The notes beneath the pieces are model-generated. The model was not told the DNA's origin. It ran no database searches and saw only the letters and a program-made list of their open reading frames with translations. From contig JANQEE010000045.1 of the NCBI GenBank assembly GCA_028278525.1, forward strand, positions 124,001 through 188,000: a stretch of DNA of 64,000 nucleotides. The letters are read 5' to 3'. The position numbers and the translations under genes were made by a program. The stretch comes from Minwuiaceae bacterium. Its GTDB lineage: Bacteria > Pseudomonadota > Alphaproteobacteria > Minwuiales > Minwuiaceae. This document shows positions 53,864 through 62,397 of this stretch, piece after piece (the first letter of the stretch is position 1; every line of letters starts with the position of its first letter).

Positions 53864-54078
53864 CGTCATTCCCCCTGTTGTGTCGCAATCCGCAACATGT
53901 CCGACCAAGCGGTTCACGTAACCGAACCGCACTTTCACATTGTCGTTAGGCCCGCCTGTTTCAGTTTGCCAGACACAATGCCGTGTCGTCTCATCTGCGG
54001 TACCCGGTCTCCGATAGATGCCGTCCGTTGCATTCGCGTTACGGTCGGTCCGGTAAAAAGCGACATTGGGGGAGGATC

Positions 54079-54888
54079 ATGAAAGGTCAAATCGCGGCGC
54101 TCTGCGCCCTGTTCACTGTCGGTATGGCCACGCCCGGCTGGACGGCCGATATCGCGGCCGGCGAAGCGACGGCCAAAGCGGTCTGCGCCGCCTGTCACGG
54201 CGCCAACGGCATCAGCGTCGCCGACACCATCCCGAACCTGGCCGGCCAAAAAGAGAAGTACCTGATCGCGCAACTCAAGGCGTTCAGGGCGGAGACGCGC
54301 AAGAACGCGATGATGAACGCCATCGCCGAGCAGGTCGACGAGGCCGATATCGCCAACGTCGCGGCGTTCTTCTCCAGCCTGCCCGGCGCGGCGCAAAGCG
54401 CGGAGAAGTCCAAGCCGCTGGACAACCTGGTCTCCACGCGGATGGGCTTTCCGGCAGACTTCGCCACCGGTTTCACCCACTACACCACGATCAACTTCGA
54501 AGGCCGCAAGCAGGTCCGTAAATACTACGCCAATAAGGCCGCGGTCGCGGCGGCGCGCGACGGCAAGCAAATGCCCGACGGCTCGGTGCTGTTGGTCGAG
54601 GTGTTCAAGGCCAAGCTGGACGGCGCGGGCAAGCCGGTGACCGGCGCGGACGGGTTTTACGTGGCCGACGGGCTGGCCGCCTATACGGCGATGGAGAAGC
54701 AGCCGGGGTGGGGTGCGGACTTCCCGGAGATCCTGCGCAACGGCGATTGGCATTACGCCGTGTTCAAGGCCGACAAGTCGCGCCGGCCCGGCGTCAACCA
54801 GGCGACCTGCCTTGCCTGCCACAAGCCGCTTGTCGACGACAGTTACGTGTTCTCGCTGAAGGCCTTACAGGAGGTCGCGCGGAAGTAG
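54079..54888 (+). CDS. Secreted dihaem protein: cytochrome c fused to a cytochrome P460-like domain
   Basis: A 269-residue periplasmic protein. A signal peptide (ALCALFTVGMATPGWTA) is followed by a class I cytochrome c with CAACH at about 36-40 and an axial Met candidate in KNAMMNAI. A C-terminal domain resembles cytochrome P460/cytochrome c'-beta: YYANKAAVAAARDGKQMPDG, then a second haem site CLACHKP in the last 25 residues and YVFSLKAL. P460 proteins oxidise hydroxylamine or bind NO. A strong ribosome-binding site GGGGGAGG precedes the ATG. Next to the nos operon, a role in nitrogen oxide handling is plausible. The crosslinking Lys of true P460 was not identified. Confidence 0.83.
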   Translation: MKGQIAALCALFTVGMATPGWTADIAAGEATAKAVCAACHGANGISVADTIPNLAGQKEKYLIAQLKAFRAETRKNAMMNAIAEQVDEADIANVAAFFSSLPGAAQSAEKSKPLDNLVSTRMGFPADFATGFTHYTTINFEGRKQVRKYYANKAAVAAARDGKQMPDGSVLLVEVFKAKLDGAGKPVTGADGFYVADGLAAYTAMEKQPGWGADFPEILRNGDWHYAVFKADKSRRPGVNQATCLACHKPLVDDSYVFSLKALQEVARK

Positions 54889-54896
54889 TTGCGGCC

Positions 54897-57800
54897 TCAG
54901 ATCGCCTGCGCCTCGCCGCGATCCTGGACGGGATGGCCCAACCGGTTGAGCAAGGCCGCCGCGTCCTCCAGATCCGGGGTCTCGAAGCCTTCGGTGAACC
55001 AGTCGTAAACCGGCACAAGCAGGTCAAGCGCGCCTTGTTCGTCGCCGTCCCGGGATAGAAGCCGAGCCAAGCTGGTGGCGGCACGCAGTTCCAGCGCCTT
55101 GGCCTGTTGCGCGCCGGCGACGGCCAGGGCGCGCCGGAACTTTTCCTCCGCCGGCTGGCGATTGCCGGCGCCGCGCGCCAGCAGGATTTCGCCGTGCAGC
55201 CTGAGGATCTCGGCTTGCCAGGTGCGTTCGCCCGTATTCTCGACGATGTCGGCCGCGCCTTCGATCACCCTGAGCGCCTGTCCGGGTTGTTCGTTGTACA
55301 GATGGCCCATCGCCAGAAGCGCATGGTAATAGGGCCGCTCGCGATGTTTGCCGGCGGCACGCCAGGCCTTCATGGCATCCTCGATCTGCGCGACGCCGGC
55401 GGCCGCGTCCCCGACCGCGGCCTCCACCCAGCCCTGCACGATCATGCATTCGGCGGCGAGGCGCGCCAGACCGGCCTCCGCACATAACTCGCTTGTTCGA
55501 CGCGCATGCTGTTTCGCGAGGGTCGCCTCCCGCCGGTACTGATGCAGGCGGACGACATGCCATTCGGCGAGCGCCAGGCTTGGCGGATGGTCCAGGCGTT
55601 GCGCCAGATCGACCGTGCGATGCGCCATCTCCAAGCCCTGGTCCGGCCGCCCGAGCAGCCACAGGCAAAGCGCGCCCGTCGCGTGGCAGCAGACGCCTGG
55701 ATCGTGGCCACCATAGGTGAAGGTCTGCACGTGGTCGCGCGCGGCATCGTAAAGTTCGATGCCGTCCCGGGCGTGCTCGAGCGCTTCGCCGACGTCGCCG
55801 AGATAAAGGCCGGTGGTCCAGACCGCGTGGTGCGCCTGAAGCAGGAACTCCGTCCCCGACTGTTTCTCGGCGATCGCCATGACGTCGTCGGCAAGCTTCT
55901 TCGCCGACGAGGGTTTGGGGCGGAACTGCTCGTTCAGCCAGGCGCCCCAGGTCGCCGCGAAGCGGTCCGCGGTGCCGTCGAGCGCCTGGGCGAGCTTGCG
56001 CGCGCGCCGATAGCTGTTCTTGGCCGCGGCCGCGCCCCAGCCCCGGGTCAGCATCAGGTTCGGGCCGAGCGCCAGCAGGATGTCGAGTTCCAGCCGGTCC
56101 CGCTCCGCGGACGCGGGCAGATTGTCCAGAACGTCGAGCGCCTTTTCCAGATAGCCGATCGCCTGGGCGTGCGCCGAGCGCCGGACCGCCATGTCGGCGG
56201 CGCGGCCGAGGAAGTCCGCCGCCTCCGCCCACAAATCGCCCGCAAGGGCGTGGCGGGCCAGGCTCTCGCTCCAGTTGTCGAGCTGATCCGGGAACCGGGC
56301 CTGGATGGTGCGGAACAGCCGGGCATGCATGGACCGCCGATGGCTCAGCAGCAAACCCTGGTAGACGACTTCGTGGACCAGGGCGTGCTTGAAGCTGAAT
56401 TCGATATCGGGCGGCAGGCGCGACTCATAGAGAATTTCGGCGGCGCGAAGTTCGGCCAGCGTCGCTTCGAACAGGCGATCGTCGAAGTCGGCGGCCTGCC
56501 GCAGCAGGGCCACCGGCACGTCCTTGCCAATCACCGCGGCGATCTGCAAAAGCCGCTTGGCGTCGGCGGTCAAACTGTCGACGCGCGCGGCGACGACCGC
56601 CTGTACGGTTGCCGGAACATCGAAATCGGCAGCCGGTTTGCGCAGGCGGTACTGTCCCGGCCGGCCTTTGAAGGTGCCGTTTTCCAGCAACGTGGCCACC
56701 GTCTCTTCCAGGAACAGCGGCGCGCCCTCGGTTCGTTCGGCAATCAACCGGCGCAGGTCGGACGACGACGGATCTTCGCCCAGCAGGTTGGTCAGGAACC
56801 GCTCGATCGCATCCGGCTCCAGAGGGTCGGCGCGGATCAGCCGGAAGTAGCTTTTGCCGGCCCAGTCGTGCCGGTAGTCCGGCCGATAGGTGACCAGGAG
56901 AAAAATGCGGGCGCCCGCAAGAGCGTCGACCAGGCTGTTGAGAAACTCCTGACAGTCCTTGTCGATCCAGTGCAGATCCTCGACCACCACGATGAGCGGG
57001 CTGATCTGGCTCTGCCGGATGAATAGCGCCTTGAGCGCGTCCACGGTCACGCGACGGCGTACCTGCGCATCGATCTTAAGCCAGGCTTCGTCCCGACTGG
57101 GCAGACCCAAAAGGGAGCCGAGCGCCGGCAGATGCTCCAGCAGCGTTTCGTCCAGGCCGGCGACCCGGTCGCGCAGTCTCTCGGCAAGATCGGGCGGCGT
57201 ATCGAGTTGGCCGACACCGAGCCAATCCCTGAGCAGATACACTGCCGCGGGACTCGGCGCCTCCCGTTCATAGGCGGTCATCGTCGTGCCGATGACGGTG
57301 CAGTCCCGCGCCCGATCCGACTGCAGGCATTCGTGCACCAGACGGGATTTGCCCATGCCGGCGTCGCCGACGACCGCGACCACTTCGCCGCGGCCGGCGG
57401 CGGCCCGCTCCAACGCCCGATCCATCGTCGCCAGCTCGGCGTCGCGGCCGACCAGCGCCGTGAGCCCGCGCGCCGCCCGCACCTGCCAGCGGGTTCGCGA
57501 GTCGGCGCGGCCGGTCAGTTCGAACAGCTCGCCGTCGCCGAGCGGCCGAACGGTGACGAACCCCTGCACCCGCCGAGAGGTTTCCGCGGTCATGGCGATC
57601 ATGCCGGGATCGACCCGGCGTTCGGCGCGATGAGCCACATGCATCACCGGGCCGGCCGCGTCGTAACGCCTGGAATATTCGTCGCCGACGGACTGCACTA
57701 CGACTTCGCCGGAATGCAGCCCGACGCGTATTGCCAATCCGCCGCCAGCCAGGGCTTTGACCGCCGCCTGCATCGCCAGCGCGGCAAAACAGCCGCGCAG

Positions 57801-59657
57801 CGCATGGTCTTCATAGGCAAAAGGCGCGCCGAACAGCGCAACGATACGGTCCCCATGCGTGCCGCTGACCGTGCCGTCGTAGCGGTGCACGGCGTCGATC
57901 ATCGCGCGCAGCGCGGGCGAAAGCCGGTCCAACGCCGCTTCCGGGTCGAGCCCTTCGATCAGCGAGGTCGAGCCTTCGATATCGGCAAAAAGGACGGTGA
58001 CGTTCTTTCGCTCCGCATCTGCCAAGTCCGGGGCAGACGACGGGCTGTCGGCGTCCGCCGGATCGGTCTCCCCCGGCAACAATCCGACCTTGCGCAGACC
58101 GTCGAAGAGGTGGCGGTTGGCGGCCGCGTCGCGGTACAGCGCCCATTTGGCCCGCATCGCGGTGAAGCCCGGCTGGGCGCGTTCGCAGGCCGCGGCGGCG
58201 GCGCGCGCCGCTTCGTCGTCTCCGAGATGGCCGCAGCAGATGGCCATGAGGTGATTGGCATAGGGGTTGGCCGGGGTGCGGCCGATCACCCGGCGCAGCA
58301 GGTCCCGGGCTTCGCCGTAGCGCCGCGCATTGATGTAAGCGCGCGCCAGGCCGCAATGATAGAAATGACCGCGCGGGTTGTTCGGATCGAGCCGAACCGC
58401 GCTTTCCAACAACGGCAGGCCTTGAGCGGATTCGCCGACGATATCGAGCTGATTGCCGAGCGAAAAGCTGGCGTGCGGATTACTGGGGCAGCAGGTGATC
58501 GCCTTACGGAACTCGGCGATGGCGAGATCCGGCTGATTGGCCCAGACGTAACAGCTACCCAGACTGACATGCGCGTAAGACGACGCATGATCCAGCATGA
58601 CGGCACGGCGCGCGGCCCTGAAGCCGTCGCCAAGCGTTTCCTCCCGATCCTCGCTGTTTTCATAGAGCAGATCGCGAAGTTGCGTCATTGCCAGCCCGGC
58701 ATAGGCTTCGCTGTAATCGGGATCCAGGGCGATCGCGTTCATGAACGATAGGCGCGCCTCGCCGCTGCCGGCCACGGTCGCCCGGCTCAACTGCACGACG
58801 CCATGGAGGTAGTGGTCCCAGGCACTGAACTCGTCCGCATCCTTGGCCGCCGACAGCCGGGAATCCGTCTGCTCCAGTTCCGGCACCACGGCCGCGGCAA
58901 TCCGGCTGACGATGTCGTCCGGCGTTTCAAGCGGATCGCCGGCCCGCCAACCGAAGCGTTCGGACCAGAGGCGATGGCCGCTCTTTCCATCGACGAGCCG
59001 GATGTTGAGGCGCCGGTCGTCGCCGTCCTTGCGCAACCCGCCGGTGACCATGTAGCGCGCGCCGAGATGCGCCGCTATCAGCCGAACGTCCGTCGCACCG
59101 TCTTCGAAGGCGTCGCCGGCGATTACCGGGAACGACCGCCAGATCGACAGCGCGGCGACGACCTTCTCCGTCAACGCTTCGGCCAAGTCGGCGTCCGGCG
59201 CATCCGCTTCGGCGACCCCGAAGGGGAGCACCGCCAAAATCGGTCGGCCCCGACCATCCCGGACTGGCCCGTCCGGCAGCGGCGGACCCGGCTCTTCAGG
59301 CTGTCCCGGCGCGCCGCCGTCCAGCCGTTCCTCGACCGCGGCGACGAACCGGTAGCCATGCCCGTGTTTGGTCTGGATCACGGTCTGCGACCGTCCGCTG
59401 TCGCCGACGGCCTGCCGCAAAGCCCTAACGCAGGTGTTCAATGCGGCATCGCCGACATGCACGCCCGGCCAAACCCGGTCGAACAGTTCCTCCTTCGGAA
59501 CGACGCGGTCGCGGTGGGCGATGAGGTAGGCGAGCAGGCCATAGACCTTGGGCCGAAGCGGCACGACGCCGTCGGCGGTCAACAGCTCGCGCTGCTTCAC
59601 GTCGAGGATAAATCGATCGAACGCGTACGCTACGACAACCCCTTGTCGCCCAACCAT
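54897..59657 (-). CDS. Giant multidomain regulator: winged helix, TolB-like, TPR, cyclase-like, AAA ATPase, TPR
   Basis: A 1586-residue cytoplasmic signalling protein. Order: OmpR-type winged helix (about 7-100, LRQAVGDSGRSQTVIQTKHG), a FlgO/TolB-like domain (about 140-280), TPR-type helices, a class III cyclase homology domain (about 548-720), an AAA ATPase with Walker A GDAGMGKSR near 762, and a long TPR tail to the end. The cyclase domain keeps Asp in FADIEGS and GDRIVALFG, but the transition-state Asn reads His (VMHVAHRAER), so catalysis is doubtful. The start at 59657 is chosen over the longer frame at 59696, which overlaps a GTTAC-AAA-GTAAC palindrome. It is followed by the cytochrome gene's convergent end eight bases away. 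Confidence 0.85.
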   Translation of the reverse strand: MVGRQGVVVAYAFDRFILDVKQRELLTADGVVPLRPKVYGLLAYLIAHRDRVVPKEELFDRVWPGVHVGDAALNTCVRALRQAVGDSGRSQTVIQTKHGHGYRFVAAVEERLDGGAPGQPEEPGPPLPDGPVRDGRGRPILAVLPFGVAEADAPDADLAEALTEKVVAALSIWRSFPVIAGDAFEDGATDVRLIAAHLGARYMVTGGLRKDGDDRRLNIRLVDGKSGHRLWSERFGWRAGDPLETPDDIVSRIAAAVVPELEQTDSRLSAAKDADEFSAWDHYLHGVVQLSRATVAGSGEARLSFMNAIALDPDYSEAYAGLAMTQLRDLLYENSEDREETLGDGFRAARRAVMLDHASSYAHVSLGSCYVWANQPDLAIAEFRKAITCCPSNPHASFSLGNQLDIVGESAQGLPLLESAVRLDPNNPRGHFYHCGLARAYINARRYGEARDLLRRVIGRTPANPYANHLMAICCGHLGDDEAARAAAAACERAQPGFTAMRAKWALYRDAAANRHLFDGLRKVGLLPGETDPADADSPSSAPDLADAERKNVTVLFADIEGSTSLIEGLDPEAALDRLSPALRAMIDAVHRYDGTVSGTHGDRIVALFGAPFAYEDHALRGCFAALAMQAAVKALAGGGLAIRVGLHSGEVVVQSVGDEYSRRYDAAGPVMHVAHRAERRVDPGMIAMTAETSRRVQGFVTVRPLGDGELFELTGRADSRTRWQVRAARGLTALVGRDAELATMDRALERAAAGRGEVVAVVGDAGMGKSRLVHECLQSDRARDCTVIGTTMTAYEREAPSPAAVYLLRDWLGVGQLDTPPDLAERLRDRVAGLDETLLEHLPALGSLLGLPSRDEAWLKIDAQVRRRVTVDALKALFIRQSQISPLIVVVEDLHWIDKDCQEFLNSLVDALAGARIFLLVTYRPDYRHDWAGKSYFRLIRADPLEPDAIERFLTNLLGEDPSSSDLRRLIAERTEGAPLFLEETVATLLENGTFKGRPGQYRLRKPAADFDVPATVQAVVAARVDSLTADAKRLLQIAAVIGKDVPVALLRQAADFDDRLFEATLAELRAAEILYESRLPPDIEFSFKHALVHEVVYQGLLLSHRRSMHARLFRTIQARFPDQLDNWSESLARHALAGDLWAEAADFLGRAADMAVRRSAHAQAIGYLEKALDVLDNLPASAERDRLELDILLALGPNLMLTRGWGAAAAKNSYRRARKLAQALDGTADRFAATWGAWLNEQFRPKPSSAKKLADDVMAIAEKQSGTEFLLQAHHAVWTTGLYLGDVGEALEHARDGIELYDAARDHVQTFTYGGHDPGVCCHATGALCLWLLGRPDQGLEMAHRTVDLAQRLDHPPSLALAEWHVVRLHQYRREATLAKQHARRTSELCAEAGLARLAAECMIVQGWVEAAVGDAAAGVAQIEDAMKAWRAAGKHRERPYYHALLAMGHLYNEQPGQALRVIEGAADIVENTGERTWQAEILRLHGEILLARGAGNRQPAEEKFRRALAVAGAQQAKALELRAATSLARLLSRDGDEQGALDLLVPVYDWFTEGFETPDLEDAAALLNRLGHPVQDRGEAQAI

Positions 59658-59681
59658 GCCACCCACCATCGATTTAGGCGG

Positions 59682-59694
59682 GTTACAAAGTAAC
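59682..59694. promoter_or_regulatory. GTTAC-N3-GTAAC palindrome before the giant regulator
   Basis: GTTACAAAGTAAC is a perfect inverted repeat (arms GTTAC/GTAAC, three-base centre) lying 25 bases upstream of the chosen ATG at 59657. It may be an operator for autoregulation. A further GC-rich palindrome (GTCGCCC-C-GGGCGAC) lies at 59710-59724. No binding data exist for either. Confidence 0.45.
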
Positions 59695-59751
59695 ACGAAT
59701 CGGGTGGGTGTCGCCCCGGGCGACAGTAACGTTGTCGTCGGCCTTGGCGGC

Positions 59752-62232
59752 CTATGACTCGTCGAGTTCCCGGGCCCAGCGGGCGTTTGTATCTTTATGA
59801 CGCCGGAGAAGGGCGCCGTTCCGGTCGAGATCGATCTGATAGGACGGCGTCATCTCGTCGACGATGGAGATCCGCTGGCGCACCCGGTCGGGCGTCCGTT
59901 CCAACCCGTCGAGGAGCTGCAAGGCCCGCTCGAAGTGCGGAACCGCCTCGAAGTGGGCGCGCGACTTGGCCGCGGCCAACCCGGCCAAGCGCCAGTGCAG
60001 TATGCCCATTTCGGCATCGCCCGCTTCGGCTAGGTGGTGGGCCATGAGTTCGGGATGCTCGTCGACCAGGGAGCGAAAGTGGATCTGCATGGCGTCGGCA
60101 ATGCGCCGATGGATGGCGCGGCGCGCCCGGCGCACCAGGCCCGAATAGGCGACATACTGGGCAAGCGCCTGCCTGAACACCAACACACGGTTCGGCGACG
60201 CGCTTCGTTCGTACAGGAATTCCGCCGCCTGCAAACGCTCCAGACAGGCTTCGCGCTCCGTATCTTCCAGATCGTCGATATGGCTCAGCAAATCGACCGG
60301 CACCTCCGTGCCGATGACCGCCGCAATCCGCAACAAAGCCTTGTCCGCCGGGGCGAGCCGGTCGATCCGGTCGGCCAGGACGTCCTTCACGCTGGACGGC
60401 AGGTCCGACCGATCCTCCAGCCACGACCAGGCAAGTTCCTCCAGAAAGAACAGATTGCCCTGCCCTTCCGCGACGATTTTGTCGAGCGCTTGCTCGGGCA
60501 GCGTTTCGGCGGCCGGCAGGGATTGAACAAGCGCCGTGCTGAGATGCGACGGCAGCGCATCCAGCGCGATCTGCGTCGCCGCCGAACTGTCCAGCCACGG
60601 CGCGCGGTAGCCGGCCCGATAGGTCGTGACCAGCAGGAGCTTCATGCCGGCAAGCCGCGACACCAGTTCCGACAACCATTCTTCCGAGGTCGGGTCGACC
60701 CAATGCAGATCCTCGATCACGACAAGGGTCGGCCGCTGGTCCGCAATGCCGCGGAAAATGCGATGCAGGAGAGCGAAGGTCTGCGTCCGGCTGTCCACCG
60801 CGCTGAGACCGTCGAGCAGACCGGGCCCGACCGGCAGGTCCATCAACCGGTTCAGCAAAGGGAGGGCGTTCGGCGGATCGATGCCGAGAGTCTCCAGTAG
60901 AGCCTGGCTTTGCGCGACAGGTTCGTCCGAGCCCGCCTCGTCCTGACGCGTGCAGAAGCCCTGCAACAGGCGCTTGATCGGCATGTAGGGACTGACCGAG
61001 GCGTATGACAGGCAATTGGCCTGGAGCAGGTTCGTCGTCGCCTGGTCGACGCTCTGCATGAATTCCCGCACAAGACGCGACTTGCCGATGCCCGGCTCGC
61101 CGGCGATACCCACCACCGCACCGCCGCCTTCCTTCAGGCGGTCGAACCGCTCTTTCAGGAAGCCCAATTCGCGGTCGCGGCCGACGAAACGGGTCAGTCC
61201 CCGGCCGCGCCGGGGCACGCCGGCATGTCGGGCGGTAAGCGCATGCACGAGATGGACGGACGGCGCGTTCGCGCCGTCCGGCGACTCGACGGGGAAGGCT
61301 TCCGCCCTGATCTCCGAGCGGACGATCTCGAACGTAGTATCGCTGGCCAGCACGCCGCCGGCCGGCGCGACCTGCTGCAGCGTGCCCGCCGTCTCGGTGG
61401 TCAGGCCGAAGGCGGTGTAGATCTGCCCGCTGTCACCGGGCAGGGCGCAGGCGACCACCGGTCCGGTGTGAATCCCGATACCGGCGCACAGTCCGTTCGG
61501 GTTCTCGCCACGGTTGCCGCGAAGCTCCTCTTGCAGCTCAAGGGCCGCGGAAACGGCCCGGCGGGCATGGTCCTCATACGCCTGCGGCGCGCCGAACAGG
61601 GCGACGACGCCGTCGCTCAGCCACTGGCTGACGGCGCCGCCGTATCGGGCGATCGCCCGCTGCGCCGTGACAAGGAAGTCCTCCATCGCCTCGTCGGCCG
61701 CTTCGACGTCGGACCCGGCCGCCAGCTTCGACGCGTTGGTCACCGTGCAATGCAATACGGTCACGTGTTTGTGTTCCTTACCGGTGGAAAACCGAGCCAT
61801 CGCCGCCGGTGCGGGCGGCACGATGTCCGAAGCGGCCGCCCGTTCGGCGGAACCGACCGGCGCCGCATCATGCGCCACCGGGCGCCGCTTCGGCCGGGCC
61901 GATTCCCGTTCGCGGTCGTCTCCCCGCTCCTCCACCGCGGCGACGAAACGGTAGCCGTGCCCGTGTTTGGTCTGGATCACGCGCTGGGACCGGCCGCTGT
62001 CACCGACCGCCTGCCTGAGCGACCTGACGCAGGTGTTCAGGGTCGCGTCGCCGACATGCACGTCCGGCCAAAGGTTTTCGAACAATTCCCGCTTCGGAAC
62101 GACGCGGTCGCGGTGGGCGATCAGATAGGCGAGCAGGCCGAAGACCTTTGGCCTGAGCGGGACGACGCCTTCCACGGTCATCAGTTCGCGCCGTTTCATG
62201 TCCAGCACAAATCGGTCGAATGTGTAATGCAT
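59752..62232 (-). CDS. Paralogous regulator: winged helix, degenerate cyclase, AAA ATPase
   Basis: An 826-residue paralogue of the neighbour. Its first 100 residues are near-identical in pattern (TFDRFVLDMKRRELMTVEGV; HVGDATLNTCVRSLRQAVGDS; TKHGHGYRFVAAVEER). The TolB-like and first TPR parts are absent. The cyclase homology domain begins near 155 and has lost the first metal Asp (VTVLHCTVTNAS). AAA Walker A GEPGIGKSR is near 377, and helical repeats run to about 800. It probably arose by tandem duplication and domain loss or gain, and probably regulates transcription with ATP-dependent switching. It is convergent to nothing and divergent from the methyltransferase. Confidence 0.85.
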   Translation of the reverse strand: MHYTFDRFVLDMKRRELMTVEGVVPLRPKVFGLLAYLIAHRDRVVPKRELFENLWPDVHVGDATLNTCVRSLRQAVGDSGRSQRVIQTKHGHGYRFVAAVEERGDDRERESARPKRRPVAHDAAPVGSAERAAASDIVPPAPAAMARFSTGKEHKHVTVLHCTVTNASKLAAGSDVEAADEAMEDFLVTAQRAIARYGGAVSQWLSDGVVALFGAPQAYEDHARRAVSAALELQEELRGNRGENPNGLCAGIGIHTGPVVACALPGDSGQIYTAFGLTTETAGTLQQVAPAGGVLASDTTFEIVRSEIRAEAFPVESPDGANAPSVHLVHALTARHAGVPRRGRGLTRFVGRDRELGFLKERFDRLKEGGGAVVGIAGEPGIGKSRLVREFMQSVDQATTNLLQANCLSYASVSPYMPIKRLLQGFCTRQDEAGSDEPVAQSQALLETLGIDPPNALPLLNRLMDLPVGPGLLDGLSAVDSRTQTFALLHRIFRGIADQRPTLVVIEDLHWVDPTSEEWLSELVSRLAGMKLLLVTTYRAGYRAPWLDSSAATQIALDALPSHLSTALVQSLPAAETLPEQALDKIVAEGQGNLFFLEELAWSWLEDRSDLPSSVKDVLADRIDRLAPADKALLRIAAVIGTEVPVDLLSHIDDLEDTEREACLERLQAAEFLYERSASPNRVLVFRQALAQYVAYSGLVRRARRAIHRRIADAMQIHFRSLVDEHPELMAHHLAEAGDAEMGILHWRLAGLAAAKSRAHFEAVPHFERALQLLDGLERTPDRVRQRISIVDEMTPSYQIDLDRNGALLRRHKDTNARWARELDES

Positions 62233-62397
62233 GGAGGCCCTTTATCGCCAAGCCATGGCGTTCGCCAGCCGTTTTATGCGGTGTCAGAAAATTATCAGGA
62301 AAAAGACAGGAGTCGCTCAAGCGTGGGCGTTTCCGCTGCCTTAGACAACCGCTCCAGCAACAGCGCCGGATGGCGGTGGAACAACGGAAGCGAGACA
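62233..62397. promoter_or_regulatory. Divergent promoter region between the paralogous regulator and a methyltransferase
   Basis: 165 bases with an AT-rich centre (about 62270-62310, CAGAAAATTATCAGGAAAAA) where promoters for both directions would lie. GGAAG serves as ribosome-binding site for the methyltransferase ATG at 62398. No clear palindrome is seen. Confidence 0.4.

Follow-up and report, generated by a model that had tools for sequence, protein, structure and literature searches.

Two adjacent genes, here called A and B, were analysed in a 64,000-nucleotide stretch of a Minwuiaceae bacterium (assembly GCA_028278525.1, contig JANQEE010000045.1, positions 124,001 to 188,000; hereafter the window). 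Their N-terminal winged helix-turn-helix domains (winged helices) and upstream leaders are nearly the same, whereas the cyclase-STAND cores behind them do not form a sister pair. As read from the sequence, the leader and the DNA-binding cassette were copied between non-sister genes. The two products are probably ATP-gated one-component STAND regulators in which different sensors converge on one operator set. The coordinates and the two giant open reading frames given in the initial annotation were exact. The features were as follows:

59752-62232, minus strand: gene B, 826 amino acids, intact open reading frame, upstream member of the tandem
54897-59696, minus strand: gene A, at most 1599 amino acids, intact open reading frame, downstream member
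59657, minus strand: ATG that is the likely start of A, amino acid 14 of the longest frame
61918-62232, minus strand: B winged-helix cassette, 82% identical to that of A over 105 codons (81% in nucleotides)
59319-59633, minus strand: A winged-helix cassette, counterpart of the B cassette
62233-62316, minus strand: B leader, homologous to the A leader, containing most of a promoter-like TTGAGC-18-GATAAT (62320-62291)
59634-59714, minus strand: A leader, homologous to the B leader, overlapping the likely first codons of A
B protein: winged helix, residues 24-96; degenerate cyclase domain, 152-305; AAA_16/STAND, 348-534 and on to ~800
A protein: winged helix, residues 45-117; TolB-like domain plus TPR, ~150-520; cyclase domain, 562-711; AAA_16/STAND, 748 to ~1210; then TPR

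Matched Winged Helices on Non-sister Cores

The BLASTP alignment of A and B split in two: the winged helices were 83% identical over 103 amino acids, and the homologous cyclase-STAND cores were 33-35% identical. At four-fold degenerate sites, 33 of 46 agreed within the winged helix (43% expected from composition, p = 8e-5) versus 67 of 137 within the core (41% expected), a difference with a Fisher p of 0.0098. Synonymous divergence (dS) by the Nei-Gojobori method (NG86) was ~0.60 for the winged helix and 1.2 for the core. The leader alignment (~80 nucleotides) scored above 2000 of 2000 shuffles and above all ~2000 random window pairs. In core trees A grouped with SARP-headed proteins and B stood apart; an A plus B clade was rejected in two approximately unbiased (AU) tests (p = 1.6e-4 and 9.4e-6).

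The copying of leader and winged helix is indicated because near-identical heads and leaders sit on cores of 33-35% identity whose sisterhood is rejected. Whole-gene tandem duplication of A and B was thus rejected by the AU test, and the label "tandem paralogues", under which the pair was initially annotated, holds for the winged helices but not for the cores. Constraint at the protein level, as the sole cause of the high winged-helix identity, is disfavoured by the similarity at third positions and in the leaders. The simplest history would be that A took up a HilA-type head and that a copy of its 5' end was subsequently placed ahead of B, a direction that we infer.

Differences between the two heads lay mostly outside the recognition helix and wing; those within them were T64A and S71A in the recognition helix and R84T in the wing. 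The next-best match to this winged helix in its own genome was 43% identical. Genome searches covered up to 399 genomes per search and scored a few best candidates per genome; absences from them are weak evidence. In the sampled genomes the best winged helices were ~49-52% identical, mostly in winged helix-TolB-TPR proteins.

Domain Architecture and the ATPase Core

Trans_reg_C, Guanylate_cyc and AAA_16 were matched above Pfam cut-offs in both proteins, so that the winged helix and AAA core originally ascribed to both are borne out. The cyclase domain, initially listed for the smaller protein, is present in both. A has a HilA-type TolB-TPR module between the winged helix and the cyclase domain, as matched to winged helix-TolB-TPR proteins, and Pfam TPR matches were found on both sides; B is without a C-terminal TPR sensor. 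Residues 20-540 of A were modelled confidently, with a predicted local distance difference test score mostly of 85-98, and the fold matches of this N-terminal half were designed TPRs and the CadC periplasmic domain, in agreement with the TolB-like domain and long TPRs first noted in the larger protein. In the B model the cyclase and ATPase parts were confident and the winged helix was poor. Foldseek matched its cyclase part to CyaC/Cya2 (template modelling score by target 0.74-0.88) and its ATPase part to ADP-bound Apaf-1 (1z6t, 0.49) and MalT (8bob, 0.68).

Pfam found neither a BTAD domain nor a C-terminal LuxR helix-turn-helix (HTH) in A or B, and no 19-residue window of A exceeded 1.6 on the Kyte-Doolittle scale, consistent with the lack of a membrane helix. 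The TOMM kinase/cyclase profile TIGR03903 scored 384 bits for A and 291 for B, below its cut-off of 706 and with profile positions <261 unmatched, which leaves both proteins outside that family. The NCBIfam HilA/EilA model matched A with an E-value of 3e-22, yet below its cut-off.

Walker A and B motifs were intact in A (GDAGMGKS and VVVEDLHWID) and in B (GEPGIGKS and VVIEDLHWVD). The GxP motif was present in A as GAP; in B it read GNL, the proline being gone. STAND regulators are kept off by contacts between the nucleotide-binding oligomerization domain (NOD) and the sensor, and inducer together with ATP turns them on (PMC6468293). The OmpR-type head of AfsR is inhibited by its NOD and TPR until ATP binds and lifts the inhibition (PMC10936776). 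The ATP-driven transcription switch first proposed for A and B is well supported by the architecture, the Walker motifs, the Apaf-1/MalT fold of B and the close kinship of A to SARP-cyclase-STAND proteins, with AfsR as a worked example.

Cyclase Domains and Catalytic Residues

Cyclase residues were read from alignments with solved cyclases and with relatives. In A both metal-binding Asp residues (572 and 616) and Arg690 were kept, and the second purine position was Asp; the purine-selecting Lys was replaced by Gly612 and the transition-state Asn by His686, the His reported earlier for the larger protein. B retained the second metal Asp, and Thr stood at the first, as had been noticed; Lys was replaced by Gln, Asn by Glu280 and Arg by Thr. 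With five of six catalytic positions lost, B is by its residues clearly a dead cyclase. That label, initially applied to the pair, appears justified for B only, and the residues of A do not mark it as dead, since the metal pair and Arg are kept and His is common among its relatives and is found in the active Rv1900c.

Of 17 A-type proteins in the comparison, 13 share the His-for-Asn change; most of them keep the metals and Arg, and no DNA-binding head was detected in some of them. The purine Lys position varied across the A clade (G, S, N, R, Q, L, K), and L122, a sister of A in its own genome, has lost both Me1 and Asn. Published descriptions give Rv1900c as an active cyclase with His in the Asn position (PMC4886424) and Ma1120 as an active one with Ala there (PMC4215837); the Asn is thus not strictly needed.

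This altered active site was clade-wide, with His for Asn in L121, L156, L162, L166, L167, L171, L178, L272, L274, the G191 pair described below, and others. The genome of the window (G000, 6 Mb) contained 35 Guanylate_cyc matches, eight of them in open frames >1000 amino acids. A remnant cyclase domain in L127 of the same genome was a weak match (hhalign probability 12, E = 0.0025).

Relatives and Analogous Pairs

The nearest cores to that of A were those of the first gene of locus G191:C16 (53% in the STAND core) and of own-genome locus G000:C8, both of which carry a SARP head (winged helix plus BTAD); BTAD was present in the sister-clade proteins L220 and L122. G191:C16 is a same-strand tandem of a SARP-cyclase-STAND-TPR gene followed by a SARP-TolB-TPR-cyclase-STAND gene, and it mirrors the layout of the window: a short member, then a TolB-TPR member, with matching heads, in the same order and orientation. 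Its members were 77% identical in the SARP heads, 67% in the cyclase domains and 59% in the STAND cores. For a shared origin of the TolB-TPR parts of A and the second G191 gene, the AU p was 0.055. A first census of A-like architectures missed this second gene because scoring was limited to the top candidates of each genome. The B-type order of head, cyclase and STAND recurred in L173 of G360 (winged helix-cyclase-STAND-TPR), on a different core lineage.

The second gene of G191:C16 (L258, 4111-9213) encodes 1701 amino acids, and a C-terminus that from its sequence looks alpha/beta-hydrolase-like replaces the TPRs. Locus G000:C8 (L259, 6152-14315) holds a SARP-cyclase-STAND gene of 1244 amino acids and, 2.4 kb off on the same strand, a SARP-TolB-TPR gene of 684 amino acids; their heads were 33% identical. 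The order was reversed in L144 (747-2885) and L147 (934-3111), where the cyclase domain is N-terminal to the winged helix-TolB-TPR part.

Leaders and the Intercistronic Region

The spacing from B to A was 55-95 nucleotides, a value set by the choice of A start codon, and the A leader began ~38 nucleotides past the B stop. One further feature was listed here:

59640-59760, minus strand: B-A intercistronic RNA, predicted fold unusually stable

From this single sequence, the predicted energy was -52.7 kcal/mol versus -41.7 +/- 3.2 for shuffles (z = -3.4, 1 of 200 shuffles). The fold pairs GGTGGGTGG, directly before the likely A ATG, and the homologous leader of B gave no comparable fold (z = 0.04). 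Rfam had no match within 59640-59760. The modelled fold suggests possible translational control of A. A perfect inverted repeat, TGTCGCCC/GGGCGACA, lies between the genes at 59709-59725, without a T-run; it is a possible operator or hairpin. A 7+4+7 direct repeat in the B leader, CTGATAA-TTTT-CTGACAC, was rejected as a PhoB/SARP-type operator: five of seven positions matched, it lies on the promoter-like -10, and it is not kept in the A leader. A search for further copies of the leader in the genome gave nothing useful.

Comparison With Known Systems

MalT has its LuxR HTH at the C-terminus and is without a cyclase domain. A shares with MalT and other TPR-STAND regulators a STAND switch with a TPR sensor, and the core of B matches MalT; a double autoinhibition model has been described for MalT-type regulators (PMC6468293). 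The large SARP-STAND regulator AfsR shares the OmpR-type head, the STAND/NOD and TPR; it differs in that its head is a SARP and in that a cyclase domain and a same-head partner gene are absent from its description (PMC10936776). The Streptomyces SARP-LAL regulators PimR, SanG, PolR and PteR have in common with the nearest cores of A that these cores carry SARP heads. PimR represents a described class in which an OmpR-type SARP head is joined to a guanylate-cyclase/LAL-like half (PMC3367932), and it binds heptamer repeats (PMC5930380). Set against PimR by its description, A and B are without BTAD, and A has the HilA/CadC-type TolB-TPR module instead.

Mclx1-3 (Rv0386, Rv1358, Rv2488c) are proteins that likewise combine a cyclase domain, AAA and a DNA-binding HTH in a single chain, and Mclx2 and Mclx3 are without metal and/or Asn residues (PMC4452763); their HTH is LuxR-type and C-terminal, in contrast to the N-terminal winged helix of A and B. 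HilA and CadC resemble the N-terminal half of A only, with an OmpR-type winged helix and a TolB/TPR region, but A has no membrane helix that could be seen and is fused to cyclase-STAND-TPR. Precedents in AfsR, PimR, MalT, HilA/CadC and Mclx cover every single part of A and B. What is unusual is the winged helix-TolB-TPR-cyclase-STAND fusion, and matched heads on non-sister cores.

Proposed Function and Alternatives

By analogy with AfsR, the MalT-type STAND regulators and PimR, A and B are read as ATP-gated, and we infer the shared operator, the gating, the sensing, the autoregulation and the target genes alike. Both proteins would be cytoplasmic and would bind DNA through the N-terminal OmpR/PhoB-type winged helix, with the STAND core acting as an ADP/ATP on-off switch. 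Likely sensors in A are the TolB-TPR module, the cyclase-fold domain and the C-terminal TPRs; B would have only its degenerate cyclase-fold domain. As the winged helices are almost the same, A and B should bind the same operator(s), where the heads would compete or co-occupy. The shared operators would most simply include the duplicated leaders of A and B, that is, autoregulation.

Several observations weigh against this interpretation. Leader identity was ~68%, near the level of neutral divergence since the copy, and for that reason is no proof of an operator. The sampled genomes yielded no orthologous pair that shares this winged helix and could give a comparative operator footprint. The switch of B may be impaired, given the change of GxP to GNL. 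The matched heads of the G191 pair, with identities of 77/67/59% in head, cyclase and STAND, can be explained as inherited from a single tandem duplication after which one member was changed, and by sequence comparison head matching by transfer is seen in the window only.

Alternatively, the leader and winged helix at the 5' end of A could have been duplicated by accident before an unrelated cyclase-ATPase gene, which would make B a truncated by-product in decay that does not function together with A. In favour of this account, B has lost the TPR sensor, the proline of its GxP motif and five catalytic positions, and the A leader starts soon after the B stop. B is, however, an open 826-residue frame with normal codon-position GC, intact Walker motifs and an intact recognition helix, and its architecture recurs in L173. 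The ratio of nonsynonymous to synonymous divergence in the winged helix was ~0.2 (NG86), which indicates that at least one of the two heads is under selection. Accidental duplication seems unlikely.

It is improbable that A is chiefly a working cyclase making cAMP or cGMP under STAND control, with transcription control secondary. Its metal pair and Arg, the prevalence of His among its relatives and the described activity of Rv1900c and Ma1120 speak for catalysis; the Gly at the purine-selecting Lys, variable in the clade, and the loss of Me1 and Asn in sister L122 speak against it. Class III cyclases act at dimer interfaces, and cyclase-fold domains occur in both products of this tandem, so that an A-B heterodimer might complete one active site. 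Such completion is extremely doubtful: B offers Thr in place of a full metal pair and Gln, Glu and Thr for Lys, Asn and Arg, so neither composite site is complete, and a composite A:B site is ruled out by these residues. ATP-gated regulators sharing an operator set are the favoured account.

Neighbouring Genes

A gene for cytochrome c fused to a cytochrome P460 domain (53983-54888, plus strand) lies between a nos-like cluster and A, convergent with A. The nos genes are outside the A/B transcription unit, and the nos/cytochrome genes, named earlier among the nearest candidate targets, are suggested by position alone. The methyltransferase gene is divergent and shares its upstream region with B; its promoter and the duplicated leaders are, by position, the first candidate targets. 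A good relative of this methyltransferase was found in one of 40 related genomes searched, and the peroxiredoxin gene initially grouped with it was not found within ~1.5 kb of that one relative.

Implications

There is no good reason to call the His-for-Asn clade "dead cyclases", because metals and Arg are conserved and so is the His; its members could be used to test for nucleotide sensing or unusual cyclase activity. More speculatively, matched-head tandem pairs could be a regulatory design in which two STAND regulators with different sensors are kept in register by sharing or copying one DNA-binding cassette, B being a sensor-less, cyclase-dead partner that would co-assemble with A on the shared operator in a two-input switch. 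If A and B do work as proposed, they illustrate one way for bacteria to rewire signalling, by swapping sensors and copying the DNA address between adjacent genes, so that two signals meet at one promoter.
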